Below, piece after piece: positions 4,239 through 33,880 of a DNA stretch of 64,000 nucleotides. Origin of the DNA: Chloroflexus aggregans DSM 9485 (lineage in GTDB: Bacteria; Chloroflexota; Chloroflexia; Chloroflexales; Chloroflexaceae); contig NC_011831.1 of assembly GCF_000021945.1 (NCBI RefSeq), forward strand, positions 558,001 to 622,000. Direction: 5' to 3'. Position 1 is the first letter of the stretch. Each line of letters opens with the position of its first letter. The position numbers and the translations under genes are program-made. The notes beneath the pieces are model-generated. The model had not been told where the DNA came from. It made no database searches and saw only the letters and a program-made list of their open reading frames with translations.

Positions 4239-5946
4239 TCATCTCAACTCATATACGTACTGTCCATCCAATTCAATTCTGAAGCGTAGCCCCATAGACT
4301 CTATTGCACTATGAACCCTCGCGTAGTTCTGATATCGTGTCGAATCCACAATGACCCATCTCACACCTAGTTCTCTCAGTAATGATACACTTTGAGTATC
4401 GGGAAAGACACTTAGTATTGGTTCGATATGTCGAAACTGGGGTGTAGAATATGCAGCAAAGAACCCACCAATGAAAGGTTTCCTATGCACGAGAGTAAAG
4501 AATGTGTGTTCAGCCCTTGTTACCAGCTCAAATGGGAACTGTGCAACCCCTCCTTCACCACTCTGATCGGCTAACCAGATATCCACTGATCGTCCCCGAA
4601 CTTCAGAAAGCATTTGAGGACCTTGAAAAAAGTCCACTAGAACCAGCAAAGCGATACCACTAAATATCAGCCACTTGGCAGAGCGACTTCTTAGCATCTC
4701 GATGAGCCAAGCAGCACCTATGCCGGCCAGTAAGCTCATGAACATGATAACGAAAACTCCATACCGCATCCAAACACGCATGTTAGAATAGAAAGGAAGT
4801 TTAAAAAGGAAATAGCCTGGTAAAGGAATAAATGTTTGCTCATAGGGATGCCATTTTTGGAGGAAATTCGGAACATTGATGATTACAGAACGTCCTCCAA
4901 TATGTAGATCAGTACCGAGTGCAAGCACAAAAGCTGTCAAAGAAACGATGGACCATAATTTGACATTTTCACGGTGTGATTTTGAAGCAAGCGAGAAAAC
5001 GGAGAGGATTAAGGTAACTGTGCCGATATACAGGGTGTTCTCAATCCATAGCCGTCGATCAAAGTGTCTATCGACCCACTCTCCCCAAAGGAAGTGTCTA
5101 GGGGAAGGGAGTATAAAGTCGAGAGGGCTTGCTGACCATATGCGGACTTCTTCGAAAGACCTCTGAGGAAGATTATCTTGAACGCTCAGCCACAGGTATG
5201 GTAGTATTGGTATGAGAACAAAAGGCAAAAAGATGACCCCAGACCCAACAATCTTAATCCAAAATCTGCCAGATTTAATTAAAGATAGGCGGGATAGGAA
5301 TACATACCCCGCAATATAAAAATATTGACAATACCATCGTGTACATAAGGTAGTACTGTGATGTCAACCCAATGAGACCTAGAAAGCAAGCTGTTGTTAA
5401 AACATTCTTCCACGACCAAGGCGGATTTCTGAGCAACTTATCAAGCCCCATAAAGAAGAAGGGAAACCACTGAGTTCCCATCAGATTCAAGTGACCAAGC
5501 ATATGACATAATCGATATGGTGCAAATGCAAAGATCATTCCTGCAATGACTCCAGCAAATATATTCTTGGTTACCCTTTGTACCCACAGATACATTCCTA
5601 GTCCGGATAGTACGAATGAGGCCAAGATTGAAAAGTTGTATCCCAAAACAGGACCTCCGACCATACTGACAGGTATCGCAATCAATACCATTGCTGGGGT
5701 CATTTCGTTGTAAGCAAGATTCCAACCTTCAGGATAGTTAAGTATCGGCACTGTCAAAGGATTCTCAAGTGCATACAATGACTTCTGAATCCATCCAATT
5801 AACCATACAAAATAGAAATTATCCCCTACCCAACCTATCACGGAATCGCCTATTCGCAAGATAAGAGGCCAAGTCATCAGGATGGTCACTCCTAAGAAGA
5901 AAAGCAACACAGCTGCATCGTAACACCACCGCATTCGTGATGTCAT
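4239..5946 (-). pseudogene. polytopic membrane protein, glycosyltransferase-like, with a single frameshift
   Basis: Two minus-strand frames join into one protein of about 568 residues. The N-terminal half starts MTSRMRWCYDAAVLLFFLGV and has several hydrophobic helices and the segment W-P-L-I-L-R-I-G-D. The C-terminal half continues with more membrane helices and a soluble tail. The frames meet at a run of four C on the plus strand (5307-5310); removing one base restores a continuous reading (L-Y-C-G-Y-V-F-L-S-R). This layout resembles GT-C-type membrane glycosyltransferases or YfhO-like proteins, but no diagnostic motif was found. The break may be a recent mutation or a sequencing error. Base composition is more A+T-rich than the core genes, which fits a captured cassette. 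Confidence 0.6.
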
Positions 5947-6020
5947 AGTTTTACCAACCTTTCGGATTAGTAACAGAGATTATCAGGAGAATTCAGCTAC
6001 CAGTTTGCGCCCCGTAACGC

Positions 6021-6027
6021 GCCCAAC
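6021..6027 (-). other. candidate attI core upstream of integrase pseudogene 2
   Basis: The minus strand reads GTTGGGC here, about 155 bp before the integrase start and about 75 bp before the start of the membrane-protein gene, which reads away from it. This mirrors the arrangement at 1581-1595. The rest of 5947-6181 shows no gene. Confidence 0.4.
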
Positions 6028-6181
6028 TGTGGACTTAACCAACACACGCCTGATAACAGGCCATAGACAGAAAGGGCGACTTTTTGCTCTAATGGCAGAG
6101 AGCTTCTGCCTAAACCGCAAAAACATCACCCTTCCACGTGTGACCGCATTGTGCGGCAAATCTTCAGCAACGTCAAGTGCT

Positions 6182-7030
6182 ATGGCCAAAAAGTTACTGG
6201 ATCAGGCTCGCGAGATTCTGAGAGCAAAGCATTATTCCTATCGCACCGAGCAATCCTACGTAGACTGGATGCGCCGCTTTATTCTCTTCCACAACAAGCG
6301 CCACCCCAAAGATATGGGCGCTGCTGAAATCCAGGCCTTCCTCCTCTACCTCGCCAACGACCGCAACACCTCCGCCTCCACCCAAAACCAGGCCCTTTCT
6401 GCCCTCCTCGTCCTCTATCGCCATGTTCTCGATCAGGAAGTGGTGCCCATCAACGCTCTGCGTGCCAAGCCATCCAGGTACCTCCCCACCGTCCTCTCCA
6501 AGGACGAGGTCAGCCACCTTCTGGATCAACTGACAGGTATACATGCTCTCTTGGCCCAACTTCTCGATAACAGTGGTATGTGCCTGGCCGAAGGATGGCG
6601 TTTACGTGTCACAGACATCGGCTTCGAGGAGCATCACCTCCTCGTTTGTGATGGCAAAGGGGACAAGGACCGGGTAACTCTCCTGCCTACCATACTCCAA
6701 TGCCGAACGAGCGTGGGGCTGGCAGTATGTCTTCCCATCCCACCGCATGTCCGCTAAGCCGGGAACCGGTATTCGTCACCGCCATCATCTGGACCCCAGC
6801 AGCCAGCAGAAAGCCATCCGCCAGACCGCCAAAGCCATCGGTCTCGCCAAACCGGTGGGTCCCCATACCCTGCGCCATTGCTTCGCCACCCACCTGCTGG
6901 AAGCCGGTTATGACTTCTGCACGATGCGAGAACTCCTGAGTCACCAAGACGTCAAGACCACTATGATTTACCCCACATCATGCAGCGGGGAACCTTGGGC
7001 GTGCGCGGCCCCCTGAACGGTGGTGCATGA
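6182..7030 (+). pseudogene. intI: integron integrase pseudogene 2 (near full length, inactivated)
   Basis: The start M-A-K-K-L-L-D-Q-A-R-E-I-L-R with H-Y-S-Y-R-T-E-Q-S-Y is a typical integron integrase N-terminus. The later parts carry V-F-P-S-H...H-R-H-H (the integron-specific segment), [12 protein letters not shown] (box II) and T-T-M-I-Y with the catalytic Tyr. The tail [15 protein letters not shown], in a shifted frame, matches the characteristic IntI end. Three lesions are visible: box I reads S-G-M-C-L-A-E-G with Cys in place of the catalytic Arg; about 30 residues are deleted and the frame shifts near 6690-6710; one more frameshift lies near 6970. It is clearly dead but clearly an integron integrase, not XerC or XerD. 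Confidence 0.88.
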
Positions 7031-11105: not shown

Positions 11106-11660
11106 TCAGGATGGTACTCTGACAACGACCTTTTCACCTGTACGCCACTCTGCAGAAAGTGGTGCATTCGGATCAAGCGACGGTGTTTTCGGAAGACGGA
11201 GAATCATCACCTGTTCTTCGGCAGGAGTTGGCAACACGTCTGTTTCGGTTCTGATAAACAACGGACCACGCCAAAGCTCCCACCCAAGTCGCTCATAAAA
11301 CACAACACTGGATGGAGAAAGTGCGGCCAATTCATAGTCCCCAATCTCATCAACAATGCGTTTCATGATGGTTGTTGCAAAACCCCGATTGCGATAGGCG
11401 GGGTCGGTAGCCACTGCTTCGATGTACGCGGTGCGCAAAAGAGGGCCGCTCCCAACTTGCAAATAGCGGGTCACCCAGAGTGCATGACTGACAAGATGGC
11501 CTTTATGGTAAGCAAGAACATGCGTTGCGCCAACAAACGTGTCGAACAGTGGTTCTAAGTCGTCCTCGTAGGCGCGGTTGCAGAGTGCAATGATGGTTTT
11601 CCGATCCGCATCTGACAAGTGTGCGCTTGGAACTACCTGGATAGTTAGCCGGGTATTCAT
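11106..11660 (-). CDS. GNAT acetyltransferase resembling aminoglycoside 2'-N-acetyltransferases
   Basis: A 184-residue GNAT-fold protein. The acetyl-CoA loop is A-Y-R-N-R-G-F-A-T, a variant of R/Q-x-x-G-x-G/A. Several segments parallel AAC(2')-I enzymes: A-Y-E-D-D near the start, V-G-A-T-H-V-L-A-Y, T-A-Y-I-E-A-V-A, A-A-L-S-P-S-S-V-V-F-Y-E-R-L-G-W-E-L-W-R-G-P, and a C-terminal A-E-W-R-T-G-E-K. AAC(2') enzymes acetylate the 2'-amino group of aminoglycosides. The likeness is from recall and the true substrate is open. The gene lies at the right end of the cassette region, in the same leftward orientation. Confidence 0.7.
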   Translation of the reverse strand: MNTRLTIQVVPSAHLSDADRKTIIALCNRAYEDDLEPLFDTFVGATHVLAYHKGHLVSHALWVTRYLQVGSGPLLRTAYIEAVATDPAYRNRGFATTIMKRIVDEIGDYELAALSPSSVVFYERLGWELWRGPLFIRTETDVLPTPAEEQVMILRLPKTPSLDPNAPLSAEWRTGEKVVVRVPS

Positions 11661-11756: not shown

Positions 11757-11981
11757 CTATAAACGGTCAAGAATGAATTCGATCATTCGCGCTACGATGG
11801 CAAACATTCCGAAAAGAGTAAGGAGTACAATGAAAACGTTCCAAACGAGATCGAAACCTGTTGGTTTGATGAACTCTGTAGTTTCGATGATCCCTGATGT
11901 ACAGTGATCAACGTTGCGAACCAAGTAGTCTCTTTCAACAAATCCTGATTCAACCACGCATTCATTATCGTGCAACCGCAT
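11757..11981 (-). CDS. small protein with one transmembrane helix, unknown
   Basis: From the ATG at 11981 this gives 74 residues starting M-R-L-H-D-N-E-C-V-V, with a hydrophobic segment F-D-L-V-W-N-V-F-I-V-L-L-T-L-F-G near the C-terminus. No family recognised. The first codons lie at the border of the 119-bp repeat array, and a copy of this gene's beginning recurs inside the array near 14357-14397, so the gene or its 5' end has taken part in the array's evolution. Confidence 0.4.
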   Translation of the reverse strand: MRLHDNECVVESGFVERDYLVRNVDHCTSGIIETTEFIKPTGFDLVWNVFIVLLTLFGMFAIVARMIEFILDRL

Positions 11982-11984
11982 AGT

Positions 11985-14900
11985 TTGCATCGGGGCACGG
12001 CACGCCGTGTCGGGGCGACGCGGCGCGTCGCCCCGACGTATCAATGATGCCACGCACGTGATGGGGTATGAACCCGAAATACAACCGTACATACGGACGG
12101 GTTTGCGTCGGGGCACGGCGACGCCGTGTCGGGGCGACGCGCTGCGTCGCCCCTACGTCATCATCAATGACGCCACGCCCGTGATGGGTCATAACCCCGC
12201 AAGACAACCGCACATACGGACCGATTTGCATCGGGGCACGGCACGCCGTGTCGGGGCGACGCACTGCGTCGCCCCTACGTCATTATCAATGATGCCACGC
12301 ACGTGATGGGGTATGAACCCGAAATACAACCGTATATACGGACGGATTTGCGTCGGGGCACGGCGACGCCGTGTCGGGGCGACGCGCCGCGTCGCCCCTA
12401 CGTATCAATGATGTCACGCACGTGATGGGGTATAACCTCGAAATGCAACCGCACATACGGACCGATTTGCATCGGGGCACGGCGGCACCGTGTAGGGGCG
12501 ACGCGGCGCGTCGCCCCTACGTATCAATGATGTCACGCACGTAATGGGGTATAACCTCGAAATGCAACCGCACATACGGACCGATTTGCATCGGGGCACG
12601 GCACGCCGTGTCGGGGCGACGCGCCGCGTCGCCCCTACGTATCAATGATGTCACGCACGTAATGGGGTATAACCTCGAAATGCAACCGCACATACGGACC
12701 GATTTGCATCGGGGCACGGCGGCACCGTGTCGGGGCGACGCACCGCGTCACCCCTACGTATCAATGATGCCACGCACGTGATGGGGTATGAACCCGAAAT
12801 ACAACCGTACATACGGACCGATTTGCATCGGGGCACGGCACGCCGTGTCGGGGCGACGCACTGCGTCGCCCCTACGTCATTATCAATGATGCCACACACG
12901 TGATGGGGTATGAACCCGAAATACAACCGTACATACGGACGGATTTGCGTCGGGGCACGGCGACGCCGTGTCGGGGCGACGCACTGCGTCACCCCTACGT
13001 ATCAATGATGTCACGCACGTGATGGGGTATAACCTCGAAATGCAACCGCACATACGGACCGATTTGCATCGGGGCACGGCGACGCCGTGTCGGGGCGACG
13101 CGCCGCGTCGACCCCACGTCATCATCAATGACACCATGTATGTGATCGGGCATGACCCCGAAATACAACCGTACATACGGACAGATTTGCATCGGGGCAC
13201 GGCACGCCGTGTCGGGGCGACGCGCCGCGTCGCCCCTACGTCATTATCAATGATGCCACGCACGTGATGGGGTATGAACCCGAAATACAACCGTATATAC
13301 GGACGGATTTGCGTCGGGGCACGGCGACGCCGTGTCGGGGCGACGCACTGCGTCACCCCTACGTATCAATGATGTCACGCACGTGATGGGGTATAACCTC
13401 GAAATGCAACCGCACATACGGACCGATTTGCATCGGGGCACGGCGACGCCGTGTCGGGGCGACGCGCCGCGTCGACCCCACGTCATCATCAATGACACCA
13501 TGTATGTGATCGGGCATGACCCCGAAATACAACCGTACATACGGACAGATTTGCATCGGGGCACGGCACGCCGTGTCGGGGCGACGCGCCGCGTCGCCCC
13601 TACGTCATTATCAATGATGCCACGCACGTGATGGGGTATGACCACGCAAGACAACCGTACATACGGACGGGTTTGCGTCGGGGCACGGCGACGCCGTGTC
13701 GGGGCGACGCGCTGCGTCACCCCGACGTATCAATGATGTCACGCACGTGATGGGGTATGACCACGCAAGACAACCGTACATACGGACGGGTTTGCGTCGG
13801 GGCACGGCGACGCCGTGTCGGGGCGACGCGCCGCGTCACCCCTACGTATCAATGATGTCACGCACGTGATGGGGTATGAACCCGAAATACAACCGTACAT
13901 ACGGACCGATTTGCGTCGGGGCACGGCGACGCCGTGTCGGGGCGACGCGCTGCGTCACCCCGACGTATCAATGATGTCACGCACGTGATGGGGTATGAAC
14001 CCGAAATACAACCGTATATACGGACGGATTTGCGTCGGGGCACGGCGACGCCGTGTCGGGGCGACGCGCCGCGTCGCCCCTACGTATCAATGATGCCACG
14101 CACGTGATGGGGTATGAACCCGAAATACAACCGTACATACGGACGGATTTGCGTCGGGGCACGGCGACGCCGTGTCGGGGCGACGCGCTGCGTCACCCCG
14201 ACGTATCAATGATGTCACGCACGTGATGGGGTATGAACCCGAAATACAACTGTATATACGGACGGATTTGCGTCGGGGCACGGCGACGCCGTGTCGGGGC
14301 GACGCGCCGCGTCGCCCCTACGTCATTATCAATGATGCCACACACGTGATGGGGCATGACCACGCATTCATCATCGTGCAACCGCATATTTTGTGTCGGG
14401 GCACGGCACGCCGTGTCGGGGCGACGCGCCGCGTCGCCCCTACGTCATTATCAATGATGCCACGCACGTGATGGGGTATAACCTCGAAATGCAACCGCAC
14501 ATACGGACCGATTTGCATCGGGGCACGGCGACGCCGTGTCGGGGCGACGCGCCGCGTCGCCCCTACGTATCAATGATGCCACGCACGTGATGGGGTATGA
14601 ACCCGAAATACAACCGTACATACGGACGGATTTGCGTCGGGGCACGGCGACGCCGTGTCGGGGCGACGCGCCGCGTCGCCCCTACGTATCAATGATGCCA
14701 CGCACGTGATGGGGTATGAACCCGAAATACAACCGTACATACGGACGGATTTGCGTCGGGGCACGGCGACGCCGTGTCGGGGCGACGCGCTGCGTCGCCC
14801 CTACGTATCAATGATGTCACGCACGTGATGGGGTATGAACCCGAAATACAACCGTATATACGGACGGATTTGCGTCAGGTCACGGCGACGCCGTGTCGGA

Positions 14901-15325
14901 GCGACGCACTGCGTCGCCCCTACGTCATTATCAATGATGCCACGCACGTGATGGGGTATAACCTCGAAATGCAACCGCACATACGGACGATTTGCGTCGG
15001 GGCACGGCGACGCCGTGTCGGGGCGACGCGCCGCGTCGCCCCTACGTCATTATCAATGATGCCACACACGTGATGGGGTATGAACCCGAAATACAACCGT
15101 ACATACGGACGGGTTTGCGTCGGGGCACGGCGACGCCGTGTCGGGGCGACGCACCGCGTCGACCCCACGTATCAATGATGTCACGCACGTAATGGGGTAT
15201 AACCTCGAAATGCAACCGCACATACGGACCGATTTGCATCGGGGCACGGCGGCACCGTGTAGGGGCGACGCACCGCGTCACCCCTACGTATCAATGATGT
15301 CACGCACGTGATGGGGTATGACCAC
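11985..15325. repeat. tandem array of about 28 units of 118-122 bp
   Basis: Units share the order GGGGCACGGC(G)ACGCCGTG, then GGGGCGACGCG.CGCGTCGCCCC, then a CACGTGATGGGGTAT segment, then ACATACGGAC.GATTTGC. The first two parts are near-perfect hairpins. Unit length changes by an optional G (CGGCACGCC or CGGCGACGCC) and by three extra bases (CGTATCAATG or CGTCATTATCAATG). Counting the ATACGGA motif gives 27 units, plus one variant unit near 14341-14400. On the minus strand, many units read M-P-D-H-I-H-G-V-I-D-D or close variants, followed by V-G-A-T-R-R-V-A-P-T. These peptides look like the HUH motif and following region of REP-associated tyrosine transposases. Open frames of 60-157 codons within the array are products of the repetition, not genes. 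Confidence 0.95.
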
Positions 15326-15406
15326 GCAAGAAGCTGAGCAGAAATTTGGTAACAGTTTGGTCATAGTGAACATTAACAAAATGTCATACCACCCACCACA
15401 ATCACC

Positions 15407-18055
15407 TTAGCCATCTTCCCGATCACGGCTCAAACGGTACTTGAGGTCGTAATTGACAATAAACTCACGTTCCTCATCGGTAAAGCCGTAGTGCTGCGCC
15501 AGCAAGCAGTCGATGCGATCAAGAAGAGGTTTGGCGCGAGCAACATCAACATTGATCTCCCTCGTCTGAATGGTCGCTCCTCGACGCAGGCGAGTCGTTT
15601 GATGGGCTGCATAGGTCGCCAGTAATGCCTGTTCTAGTTCAATATATGGACGAACATCAATCGCGGATATGTCAAACACCGGTAGTTCTAACACTTCGCG
15701 TGAAACTACGTCCATACAATTAGAATTGACAATCCAATACCAATAAAAAAGTTGGCTATTCAATAACGCCATGACTACCGGACGAAGGTGGGCAGGCACT
15801 ACAATCGGTTTGTAGTGTGACGATAGTTTTTCCAGCAATGCTTTGCGCCAGTATCGCCCGCCGGAATGATAGTAAATAGCAACGCCGTCTTTTGCCACAA
15901 AATCTTTTAGCTTTTTACGGTGTGAATGCATCTTTTCGAGCAGTGTTACCTCAATCGGCGAGCCAACTTTAGGCACAGGATTTGCGTGGGTGGGAATACC
16001 CGGCCAATGACAGTATATAATCTTGTCAAACAAGTAGGGCCGGTCGCTGTGTTTGCCGCTGAACCAACGGTAGTAGGATGTGGTGTAGACGGTTGGTTCA
16101 GTTTCAGCGCGCTTGAGCAGGGTAATCGTGAGGTTCATATCAACCCCGGCAAAGAGCTTACCGGGTCTGACCGCGTAATGGCTGTGCCACTGTGTGTAAT
16201 GACGATAGATATGTTGTAATGATCGCATACGTTCAGTTGAGATCGATGCGATCGGTACAATCATCCCAAACCTTCCTTGCTTAGATAATAGATGTAATGC
16301 TCGTTCGATGATAAACGCATACACATTTCCCGTATCTTCAGTCTGATAATTGACAATACGGTAGATATGCTTCACGTTACTGTAGGCAAGATACGGTGGA
16401 TTACCGACAATCACATCAAAACCACCACGATTGAGCATTGGATACCATACACTACACCAGTGAAACGGTTGGGTATTGTAGTCTCCGTTTGGTCGAACCC
16501 ATAGCAACCCTGCCTGTTGCAAGGCCCGATCAAGATGCGCATTGATTGCTTCTAGCCGGTGACGGATCCGACAGCGTAGTAGGTGACGACCGGCGTGATC
16601 AAGATCGCAGCGGAGCTGCGCCGCACGATAGCTATCCAATTCGCGTTGGACATCCTGAATCTCGGCGAGCAGTTGTGCGTGACCCGGCACAACCCGATCA
16701 CTAATCTCTGCCGGTTGGGCAAACCCAACCAGTGCATTCCCGGTCTGAATGTTGAAATCGATATCCGGTAATGATGCGAGATGTTGGGCATGATCGAGAT
16801 CGGCGATCATGCGCAGCCAGAGGCGTAATTTGCAGATTTCAACTGCCTCGGCCATCAGATCAACGCCGTACAGATTGCGCAGGATAATGCTCTTGGTCAT
16901 GAAGGATGCACGGTTCGCGTGCCCGTCCGCTTCTGCCAACACCTCTCGCAACGGCAGCCCGGCAGTCTGCTTCTGCGCAACCAGTTCCTCCATCCGGTTG
17001 AGAACTGCCGCATAGATCGGTTGCAGAATCCGCAGCGCCGCGAAGAGAAACGCGCCCGAACCGACGGTGGGATCGAGCACACTGAGCGGTAACCGTCCGT
17101 AAGCCGGATCGCCGGCCAAGACGGTGTAAAGCCTATACACCTGCGGTGCCGTGAGCAGCGGTATCAGATCGGTGATGAGTGCTTCGAGGTTAAGGTTCGC
17201 CGTGACCGCATCGTTGATCGTCGCAATCTGGCCCGCTTCCGCCGCGGCCACAATTGTCGCGACCTGTGTTCGTCGCATGATGTGCTCACGGGGCGTTTCG
17301 GTAGGCAATGGCTCCGCCTGCCGCATTGCCGGGTATATGTATTTGCCAATGTTTTGCGCGATGTTGAGCGGTGCAAGCGATAACCCGGCTTTGTCAAACA
17401 AAACCGGAATGATCGTTGAGCGGCAAATGTAACCAGAAATATCATCACGTGTGTAGTACGCACCCGTCTGTTTTTGATTAATGTACTTTTCTAAGATGTA
17501 TCCCATAATATCGGGATCGATCTCACGCTTATCGGTACCGGATCGGCGATGTACACACCAACGCCACGTATCAAAAAAGGCAAAGAGTTGGGCAAAGGCG
17601 TGATCGGGAATATCCAGCGCTGCGCCATACCGTTCCTCAAGAGGATGCGGGACGAACAGGCTACTGTTGAAATAGGGGACATCGCCGAGAAGTTGGTTAA
17701 CCGCCGGGTCGCGTTGCTTGGGTTCACAACTCAAACCCTGAAAAAAAAGGGTTTGCAACACATCACGATAGTAGCGATGAGGTCCTCGATGCGTTGTACT
17801 CCATTCGAGCCGTTCACGTAGATAATCGGTGTTGTTATTCAAAAAACCTTTTTGCTGAATAAAATAGATGAACATCAATCGATTGATCAGCACAGAAGCG
17901 TACCAATTCCGATCATGTTCCGCCGGAATACCACGTATACTTGTCTGAAACGCTTCACGCTGCTGTTGGAATTCTTCGTAGAAATGTTTGGTCACCCGTT
18001 CAGTATCAACATACTGAGTTGATGGTGGTGTGAAACGAGACATCTCAAACTGCAT
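15407..18055 (-). CDS. adenine-specific DNA methyltransferase / type IIG restriction-modification enzyme (Eco57I-like)
   Basis: An 882-residue protein. The N-terminal part (F-Y-E-E-F through L-M-F-I-Y-F-I-Q-Q-K-G-F-L) matches the helical region preceding the methylase core in type IIG and Eco57I-type enzymes. The N6-adenine methylase motifs follow: motif I D-P-T-V-G-S-G-A-F-L, G-V-D-L, and the catalytic motif IV N-P-P-Y within F-D-V-I-V-G-N-P-P-Y-L. A C-terminal region (L-L-N-S-Q-L-F-Y-W-Y-W) is like target-recognition domains. No clear PD-(D/E)XK nuclease motif was found at the N-terminus, so it may be methylation-only or need a partner. It follows the repeat array by 80 bp and reads toward it; hypF lies 59 bp upstream. 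Confidence 0.82.
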   Translation of the reverse strand: MQFEMSRFTPPSTQYVDTERVTKHFYEEFQQQREAFQTSIRGIPAEHDRNWYASVLINRLMFIYFIQQKGFLNNNTDYLRERLEWSTTHRGPHRYYRDVLQTLFFQGLSCEPKQRDPAVNQLLGDVPYFNSSLFVPHPLEERYGAALDIPDHAFAQLFAFFDTWRWCVHRRSGTDKREIDPDIMGYILEKYINQKQTGAYYTRDDISGYICRSTIIPVLFDKAGLSLAPLNIAQNIGKYIYPAMRQAEPLPTETPREHIMRRTQVATIVAAAEAGQIATINDAVTANLNLEALITDLIPLLTAPQVYRLYTVLAGDPAYGRLPLSVLDPTVGSGAFLFAALRILQPIYAAVLNRMEELVAQKQTAGLPLREVLAEADGHANRASFMTKSIILRNLYGVDLMAEAVEICKLRLWLRMIADLDHAQHLASLPDIDFNIQTGNALVGFAQPAEISDRVVPGHAQLLAEIQDVQRELDSYRAAQLRCDLDHAGRHLLRCRIRHRLEAINAHLDRALQQAGLLWVRPNGDYNTQPFHWCSVWYPMLNRGGFDVIVGNPPYLAYSNVKHIYRIVNYQTEDTGNVYAFIIERALHLLSKQGRFGMIVPIASISTERMRSLQHIYRHYTQWHSHYAVRPGKLFAGVDMNLTITLLKRAETEPTVYTTSYYRWFSGKHSDRPYLFDKIIYCHWPGIPTHANPVPKVGSPIEVTLLEKMHSHRKKLKDFVAKDGVAIYYHSGGRYWRKALLEKLSSHYKPIVVPAHLRPVVMALLNSQLFYWYWIVNSNCMDVVSREVLELPVFDISAIDVRPYIELEQALLATYAAHQTTRLRRGATIQTREINVDVARAKPLLDRIDCLLAQHYGFTDEEREFIVNYDLKYRLSRDREDG

Positions 18056-31765: not shown

Positions 31766-31778
31766 CACCTTCGCGCCC

Positions 31779-32303
31779 TCCGTGCCGCTGCGCCCTTTGC
31801 CTTTGCGTTCGTTGCCCTTCGTGGGGGCACGGCACCGCCGTGCCCCTACAGGTGGCGCTTGTTGCGGCAGCCCCCTCTGCGCCTTTGCGCCCTTTGCCTT
31901 TGCGTTCGTTGCCCTTCGTGGGGGCACGGCACCGCCGTGCCCCTACAGGTGGCACTTGTTGCGGCAGCCCCCTCCGCGCCTTTGCGCCCTTTGCCTTTGC
32001 GTTCGTTGCCCTTCGTGGGGGCACGGCACCGCCGTGCCCCTACAGGTGGCGCTTGTTGCGGCAGCCCCCTCCGCGCCTTTGCGCCCTTTGCCTTTGCGTT
32101 CGTTGCCCTTCGTGGGGGCACGGCACCGCCGTGCCCCTACAGGTGGCGCTTGTTGCGGCAGCCCCCTCCGCGCCTTTGCGCCCTTTGCCTTTGCGTTCGT
32201 TGCCCTTCGTGGGGGCACGGCACCGCCGTGCCCCTACAGGTGGCACTTGTTGCGGCAGCCCCCTCCGCGCCTTTGCGCCCTTTGCCTTTGCGTTACACGT
32301 TAT
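31779..32303. repeat. 97-bp tandem repeats between hypD and hypE
   Basis: Five full units plus a partial one. Each has a run of CCTTTGCG-type words, then the hairpin GGGGGCACGGC / GCCGTGCCCC, then CTACAGGTGGC.CTTGTTGCGGC. The long open frames across it on both strands (Arg/Ala/Gly/Pro-rich) result from a unit length of 97 that cycles the frames. They are not genes. Confidence 0.92.
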
Positions 32304-33376: not shown

Positions 33377-33880
33377 CCGATAACGATGCTGTAACGCAAA
33401 GGCGCGGAGGATCAGGGTGCCTTTGCGTTACCGTCTTTGCCCTTCGTGGGGGCACGGCGGTGCCGTGCCCCACGTGCGTTAACCCCCTCCGCGCCTTTGC
33501 ACCCTTTGCACCCTTTGCGCCTTTGCGTTAGTGTCCTTTGCGTTAGCGGCCTTTTGCCCTTCGTGGGGGCACGGCATGCCGTGCTCCTACGTGCGTTAAC
33601 CCCCTCCGCGCCTCTGCGACCTTTGCGCCTCTGCGACCTTTGCGCCTCTGCGACCTTTGCGCCTCTGCGACCTTTGCGCCTCTGCGACCTTTGCGTTACC
33701 GTCTTTGCCCTTCGTGGGGGCACGGCGTGCCGTGCCCCTACGTGCGTTAACCCCTCGGTGCCTCTGCGCCCTCCGCGCCTTCGCGCCCTTTGCGTCTTTG
33801 CGTTTACCATCCTCTGCGCCCTTCGCGCCCTTTGCGTCTTTGCGTTACCGTCCTTTGCGTTACCGCTTGCACACCTTTTT
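33377..33880. repeat. mosaic repeat block between hypE and leuS
   Basis: Copies of the hairpin word GTGGGGGCACGGC...GCCGTGCCCC alternate with CGCCTTTGCGTTA-type tracts. It includes five exact copies of the 17-mer CGCCTCTGCGACCTTTG at 33609-33693. No gene is supported; the open frames are Arg/Leu-rich artefacts. Confidence 0.9.

Follow-up and report, generated by a model that had tools for sequence, protein, structure and literature searches.

The array and its surroundings

The window, a 64-kb stretch of DNA, covers positions 558,001-622,000 of a genome that consists of one contig with 4,684,931 bases. Among its minus-strand genes are one for a GNAT acetyltransferase (11,106-11,660) and one for an Eco57I-type methylase (15,407-18,055), and between these lies a tandem array that is downstream of the methylase gene, 83 bases from its stop codon on the right flank, and upstream of the GNAT gene on their common strand. 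Applied to the window, TRF placed this array at 11,984-15,323 with a period of 119, 27.8 copies and 89% matches, in agreement with the location, the roughly 28 copies, the period and the double hairpin reported in the preliminary description. Cutting the minus strand at a recurring CAAAT/CAAAC yielded 27 full units of 118-123 bp (119 bp in 14 units, 122 in six, 123 in five and 118 in two) plus partial ends. The minus strand is also the sense strand of the REP-associated transposase (RAYT, or TnpAREP) sequences discussed below.

By eye, the left end holds a partial terminal unit (QTMRLHDNECVV; 11953..11987, minus strand) whose likeness to the unit ends at TGCGTGGT, and in the right flank (15324..15406, no strand assigned) the likeness ends at TTGCGTGGT, which matches the same unit position. 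Because the likeness stops at an equal point on both sides, the array comprises nearly a whole number of units. TRF also reported periods of 364 and 483 bp, and units 14 and 17, 15 and 18, and 4 and 9 form identical pairs. Together, these periods and pairs indicate that blocks of units were duplicated by past recombination in the array. The consequences proposed in the preliminary description are less well founded than the origin: past recombination is visible (units 14/15 equal 17/18, and unit 4 equals unit 9), and recruitment of nucleoid proteins and stalling of replication are conjectural. Elsewhere in the window (31776-32294 and 33420-33859) there are other tandem repeats, with periods of 97 bp (5.4 copies), 117, 17 and 42 bp, and GGGGCACGGC hairpins are present in some of them; two repeat stretches from these regions, when tested, were not RAYT-derived.

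RAYT genes of the genome and their match to the units

A search of the genome with Y1_Tnp (PF01797) gave 21 matches at E<=1. A weak match at 4,026,124 (12.7 bits, below the cut-off) marks a complete 197-aa open reading frame, RAYT1, whose protein reads ...TAQIRPYVRLYDDEFVVMPNHIHGIIWIINDDVGATRRVAP.... When RAYT1 was searched against its own genome at E<=1, the 52 matches included itself, RAYT2 (67% identity), RAYT3 (45%) and a broken fourth copy. The open frames of RAYT1 and RAYT2 carry the HUH and Y-x-x-x-NP motifs by which RAYT/TnpAREP proteins are defined (PMC6006769), namely MPNHIHG and YIATNP in RAYT1 and MPNHVHG and YIIENP in RAYT2. Their sole NCBIfam match is NF047646 (REP-associated tyrosine transposase), with E 5.1e-19 (68.6 bits) for RAYT1 and E 9.1e-14 (51.6 bits) for RAYT2 against a cut-off of 80, and neither has a Pfam match at E 0.001. 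A RAYT profile (A1) matches the TnpArep structure PDB 4er8 with E 2.1e-05, over 33 positions. The preliminary description had called for a search of the genome for a full RAYT gene containing the matching segment, and RAYT1 and RAYT2 are such genes.

Searched against the array at E<=1, RAYT1 matches 14 places on the minus strand, and two on the plus strand that involve the hairpin part only. The best match joins residues 64-106 to a unit at 78% identity (E 1.2e-8) across both spacer and hairpin, which bears out the earlier idea that a transposase gene fragment was amplified together with its hairpin. Because the RAYT1 queries take in part of the linker, hairpin-encoded residues are counted in these unit identities. 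At the DNA level, unit 4 aligns to nucleotides 192 to 324 of the gene over its whole length except for the last 11 bases, and the alignments of units 7 and 14 begin at nucleotides 205 and 203. From these alignments, the unit can be described as RAYT codons ~65-92, the hairpin of the RAYT linker and a second hairpin. No parent gene of the array was found in the genome, and RAYT1 and RAYT2 resemble the spacers only moderately, which suggests that the source copy has been lost or has diverged.

Anatomy of the unit

Each unit begins with RAYT codons ~65-92, a segment that closes with the HUH motif, and continues with the RAYT-linker hairpin (encoding VGATRRVAPT) and a second, fused hairpin before codon 65 comes again. 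The spacer is therefore about 28 codons that end with the HUH motif and are followed by a GTAG-type REP, and the RAYT-derived segment measures 66-70 bp. When the orientation of the REP pair was looked at, the two fused palindromes each proved nearly symmetric; the second (B) reads as a 5'-truncated hairpin fused to the first (A). A GTAG foot is present in 20 of the 27 units. The 10-bp stem is perfect in 16, and seven of the remaining 11 fail by wobble only. These frequencies are compatible with use of the hairpins as a substrate and with non-use, and neither show nor exclude either.

The preliminary description read both MPDHIHG and VGATRRVAPT on the minus strand of many units. By eye, VGATRRVAPT or a near variant is indeed encoded by the hairpin in most units. 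The claim for MPDHIHG was overstated, as this reading occurs in two of the 27 units, unit 14 (13431..13553, minus strand) and unit 17 (13067..13189, minus strand), which are identical in sequence and reflect a segmental duplication within the array; unit 17 shows 78% identity to RAYT1 by tblastn. The other units carry decayed forms of the motif: IPHHVRG (10), IPHHVRD (8), IPHYVRD (3), IPHHVCG (2), MPHHVCG (1) and MTHHGRG (1). The RAYT codons DDE survive in unit 7 (14271..14393, minus strand), a variant that reads LHDDECVVMPHHVCGII and is the top scorer against RAYT2 among five spacers tested. They persist as DNE in the left partial unit and are lost from the other units.

Unit 22 (12470..12588, minus strand) consists of the spacer (RAYT codons ~65-92), a REP A stem of GTAGGGGCGACGC..GCGTCGCCCCTAC and the fused hairpin B, and is alone among the 27 units in having a two-footed REP A stem. 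Folding covered this unit only. As single-stranded DNA, it folds at -26.5 kcal/mol (z -2.28), and two of 200 shuffles folded equally well.

The array is non-coding

The lengths of 22 of the 27 units are not multiples of three, and units differ from one another by indels of 1 and 4 bp. Variable spacer columns, counted with unit 7 left out, number 10, 8 and 6 (of 22 each) by codon position and thus show no third-position excess. Given the frame-breaking lengths, the rarity of MPDHIHG and this lack of excess, we conclude that the array is non-coding now. A lack of codon bias between units had been named at the outset as a finding that would speak against the RAYT connection. That lack is indeed observed, and it speaks to the present non-coding state rather than to an absence of RAYT origin. 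The idea that the array encodes a repetitive protein draws on the only coding-like feature, the absence of stop codons in the RAYT frame in all 27 spacers, and on minus-strand open reading frames that reach 157 aa. We rejected it as almost certainly wrong because of the frame-breaking unit lengths, the indels and the distribution of variable spacer columns.

The spacer likeness to RAYT genes is not due to the hairpins

A hairpin that is shared between arrays and RAYT genes could by itself create an apparent relationship, such that the spacer would be unrelated DNA and the RAYT likeness would lie in the hairpin-encoded peptide only. Matches to the hairpin part in other arrays of the genome, including on the plus strand, are of the kind expected from this reading. 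We therefore consider controls in which the hairpin contributes little or nothing. A linker-free profile was made from 75 of 80 named RAYT loci (five without a recognisable HUH frame were dropped) and ends ahead of most of the linker. With this profile, the three minus frames of the array scored 17.7, 9.4 and 7.7 bits, whereas the best frame from 30 dinucleotide shuffles of array 1, read in six frames, scored 2.3. Six array places gave single domains that outscored every shuffle domain (at most 1.1 bits), with a top score of 9.9 bits and nearly all at model positions 67-89; the other array domains were weak. No plus frame of the array was among the best 60 rows of this search, and eight other repeat stretches scored below zero.

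Hairpin-free spacers behave similarly. The spacer of unit 7 scored 70 against RAYT2, compared with a maximum of 32 in 500 codon shuffles, and that of unit 14 scored 57 against RAYT1 (shuffle maximum 30). Unit 25 scored 46 against RAYT2 (shuffles 35) and 30 against RAYT1, which is below its shuffles (32), and RAYT3 gave no signal with hairpin-free spacers. When hairpins were masked in the DNA of 12 array stretches, a RAYT match was found only for the array in the window (array 1) and for one other (array 2), in both cases on the minus strand; against RAYT2, array 1 scored 51 (shuffle maximum 37) and array 2 scored 60 (maximum 35 in its own shuffles). The notion that all arrays of the genome are RAYT-derived is thereby rejected.

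The linker-free and hairpin-masked tests, together with the score of unit 7, lead us to reject chance or the hairpin alone as the source of the likeness; the latter has next to no probability. The likeness to the HUH region of RAYTs that had been noticed by inspection is thus no accident, and these data support the conclusion that the whole unit, beyond its hairpins, derives from a RAYT/TnpAREP gene.

A second RAYT-derived array and the hairpin family

Array 2 (L029:3490-4560, corresponding to C1:1149489-1150559) is built of units 114 and 176-179 bp long, which by eye read MPHHGRGIGWIV on the minus strand. Its spacer, tested as a long unit that still contains decayed hairpin sequence and compared with its own shuffles, scored 51 against RAYT1, barely above the shuffles (48), and 62 against RAYT2, clearly above them (35). 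Judged by its sequence, array 2 is RAYT-derived, as is array 1. In its terminal copy, a hairpin (REP) is followed by CAAATCCGTTCG, a hairpin-CAAATCCG joint that resembles the one in the window, where a REP runs into CAAATCCGTCCG. These similar joints of a REP to codon 65 suggest that the two arrays probably share a common founder.

There is also a precedent for repeats entering a RAYT gene near codon 65. At L105:4180-6300 (C1:2003180-2005300), a RAYT remnant is split between residues ~55 and 69 by 1.6 kb of a different tandem repeat, CCTGTCATTGCGAGCG, and this split point is near the start of the window unit. Other arrays adjoin RAYT genes. One of 26 copies of 57 bp (L107:2738-4213) ends ~8 bp past the RAYT3 stop codon, and one of a 160-bp type (L032:2470-4109) ends ~70 bp past that of RAYT1.

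Hairpin arrays are common among the genome stretches examined. The genome contains 31 exact copies of the hairpin, of which 16 are in array 1, five in array 2, nine in other arrays and one inside RAYT1. Thus, 15 of the 31 are outside the array in the window, and none is a dispersed single copy by this exact pattern, which decayed copies would escape. Single dispersed copies are not required for membership in a REP family because certain families of GTAG REPs occur mostly in clusters (PMC3733652). The exact two-footed pattern is found at 11 places, of which six are in arrays, one is in RAYT2, one is beside an array and three are clustered at 4.20 Mb. In another genome of the genus (G003), a hairpin with the same stem and a 2-base loop is present at 35 places over the chromosome, with two pairs within 260 bp.

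REPs within RAYT reading frames

The placement of a REP in frame between the HUH and Y motifs is described as unique to subclass 2.4 of tnpAREP, which has double-foot REPs (PMC6006769; Quentin et al. 2018), and this trait is present in both RAYT1 and RAYT2. Hairpins with stems of at least 8 bp were counted in 71 RAYT genes from many phyla, a set that results from the 80 named loci after removal of five without a recognisable HUH frame and four without a C-terminal anchor. There were 67 hairpins in 6,444 linker bases, where 0.7 would be expected from codon shuffling, versus eight in 35,541 other bases. At least one linker hairpin was found in 55 of the 71 genes. This estimate might be biased, as one of the search peptides came from the linker, and a second count therefore used a query without linker sequence. 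The resulting set of 19 genes, RAYT1 included (from 29 loci, with eight lacking a C-terminal anchor and two lacking an HUH frame dropped), had 16 hairpins in 2,217 linker bases, where codon shuffling predicts 1.0, versus one in 9,531 others, with linker hairpins in 13 of the 19 genes.

Some RAYT linkers carry repeats of another kind. Those in L162 (with APRQSNGLPQSD, for example), L133 and L172 contain peptide repeats in tandem and in frame, which suggests that repeats can grow within open RAYT frames. A RAYT-like open frame of 431 aa in L194 (G019:C3, ~5560-6797) has a long low-complexity linker of the GDGD/NDGD type past its HUH motif.

Distribution in relatives

By DNA comparison, the array was not found in the seven other genomes of the genus, and six of 30 other relatives match its DNA over at most 47 query bases each, at hairpins. 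A search of 251 genomes of the phylum with residues 58-106 of RAYT1 (E<=1e-4) gave matches in 30, its own included. The own genome gave 14 matches, 11 of them in the array, and no clustered matches were seen in the 250 other genomes, where the maximum was four per genome. Because this setting detects just 11 of the 27 units in the window, more decayed arrays might exist elsewhere. Of the seven other genus members, four have the right-flank gene and one has the left-flank GNAT gene, but none has both. An empty site was not found in these seven genomes and, because the two flank genes do not occur together in any one relative, could not have been read there.

Relationship to known repeat systems

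The array has the traits of a REP cluster, including palindromes of REP size with a GTAG foot, tandem reiteration together with flanking DNA, and family members elsewhere in the genome. Its GTAG-tagged palindromes resemble the GTAG-REP clusters reported from bacteria that include Chloroflexi (PMC3733652; Di Nocera et al. 2013), but the flanking DNA reiterated in the window is a segment of a REP-associated transposase gene. With tnpAREP subclass 2.4 (PMC6006769), the genes share an in-frame REP between the HUH and Y motifs of the GT[AG]G..C[TC]AC double-foot type, to which the hairpins of RAYT1 and RAYT2 are similar. In contrast, tandem amplification of the gene segment is a feature of the window, and the words 'tandem' and 'array' are absent from the main text of that paper. 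BIMEs likewise consist of REP units separated by linkers and often occur in consecutive tandem copies (PMC8266576). However, the unit in the window has two fused hairpins with no clear pair of a REP and an inverted REP, and its linker is transposase coding DNA. Finally, Rickettsia palindromic elements are also in-frame palindromes within genes (PMC3733652), whereas the cited source mentions no host gene segment repeated in tandem. Relative to what these sources describe, the new element is therefore a REP/BIME cluster with transposase coding DNA as its spacer; in-frame REPs in RAYT genes were already known (PMC6006769). Searching by title or abstract start found no report of RAYT-fragment arrays, which is no proof of their absence from the literature.

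Possible origins of the array

We consider it probable that the locus is a tandem cluster of the REP/BIME type, with a spacer formed by a RAYT segment that was once bracketed by REPs, that was amplified by REP-to-REP recombination or slippage, and that is now a non-coding remnant. The founder would have been a decayed RAYT copy, resembling those of subclass 2.4, that gained a second REP at about codon 65. The 66-70 bp segment would thereby have become flanked by two REPs, the internal one and the one at codon 65. Recombination between these REPs, or template switching at the hairpins, might then have produced the first tandem copy and with it the fused A/B hairpin, and unequal exchange could have expanded the array to ~28 copies. 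The result would be a selfish or neutral remnant, and any effect, such as a barrier downstream of the methylase gene or the supply of extra single-strand REP substrate to an intact RAYT, would be a by-product. The fused A/B joint is directly visible, and the bracketed founder and the agent are inferred; the founder was not seen as a single copy.

A RAYT protein may possibly have acted in the formation of the array. It might have cut the GTAG feet of adjacent REPs and generated a unit-long single-strand circle or rolling-circle product that inserted as a concatemer, with the phase of the array ends marking the circle joint. Several observations are compatible with this route, including the open RAYT1 and RAYT2 frames with both motifs, the GTAG foot in 20 of 27 units, the stop of the array at TGCGTGGT on both ends and the presence of the composite at two loci. 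Moreover, circular intermediates with REP units have been mentioned as a possible source of REP arrays (PMC3733652), and cleavage by E. coli TnpAREP is GTAG-dependent (PMC8266576). However, an equal end phase is expected of any whole number of units, the cited sources describe no RAYT that makes such concatemers, and the stretches examined hold many arrays that lack a RAYT spacer, so ordinary recombination suffices. We thus regard this route as rather unlikely. Retention of the array for a function, whether stabilisation or termination of transcripts from the upstream gene, binding of gyrase or nucleoid proteins, or a role as a RAYT decoy, seems improbable. Its place 83 bases behind the methylase stop and upstream of the same-strand GNAT gene would suit such roles, as would the better-than-shuffled folding of unit 22 (z -2.28), which is the sole two-footed unit. 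Against them stand the failure to find the array by DNA in the seven other genomes of the genus or a match cluster in 250 other genomes of the phylum, the 11 of 27 units without a perfect 10-bp stem (seven by wobble), and spacer columns that vary freely.

Implications

The spread of REPs and the part of RAYTs in it are still open, with the mechanisms of dissemination described as poorly understood and work on the pathway as in progress (PMC8266576). A spacer that can be traced to known codons provides a directional marker that reveals which REP end joined what, and ties REP clusters to intragenic REPs. The exact hairpin is found here only in arrays and in RAYT1, whereas a similar one is dispersed in a genome of the same genus, so that the two genomes set dispersal against local amplification in a way that can be tested. 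It is also tempting, though doubtful, to speculate that the REP-bracketed RAYT segment was a mobile composite, moved in trans by an intact RAYT, given that it occurs at 0.57 and 1.15 Mb with a near-equal joint of REP to codon 65; each copy would then have grown into an array. If so, intragenic REPs would enable a domesticated transposase gene to release pieces of its own sequence and multiply them.
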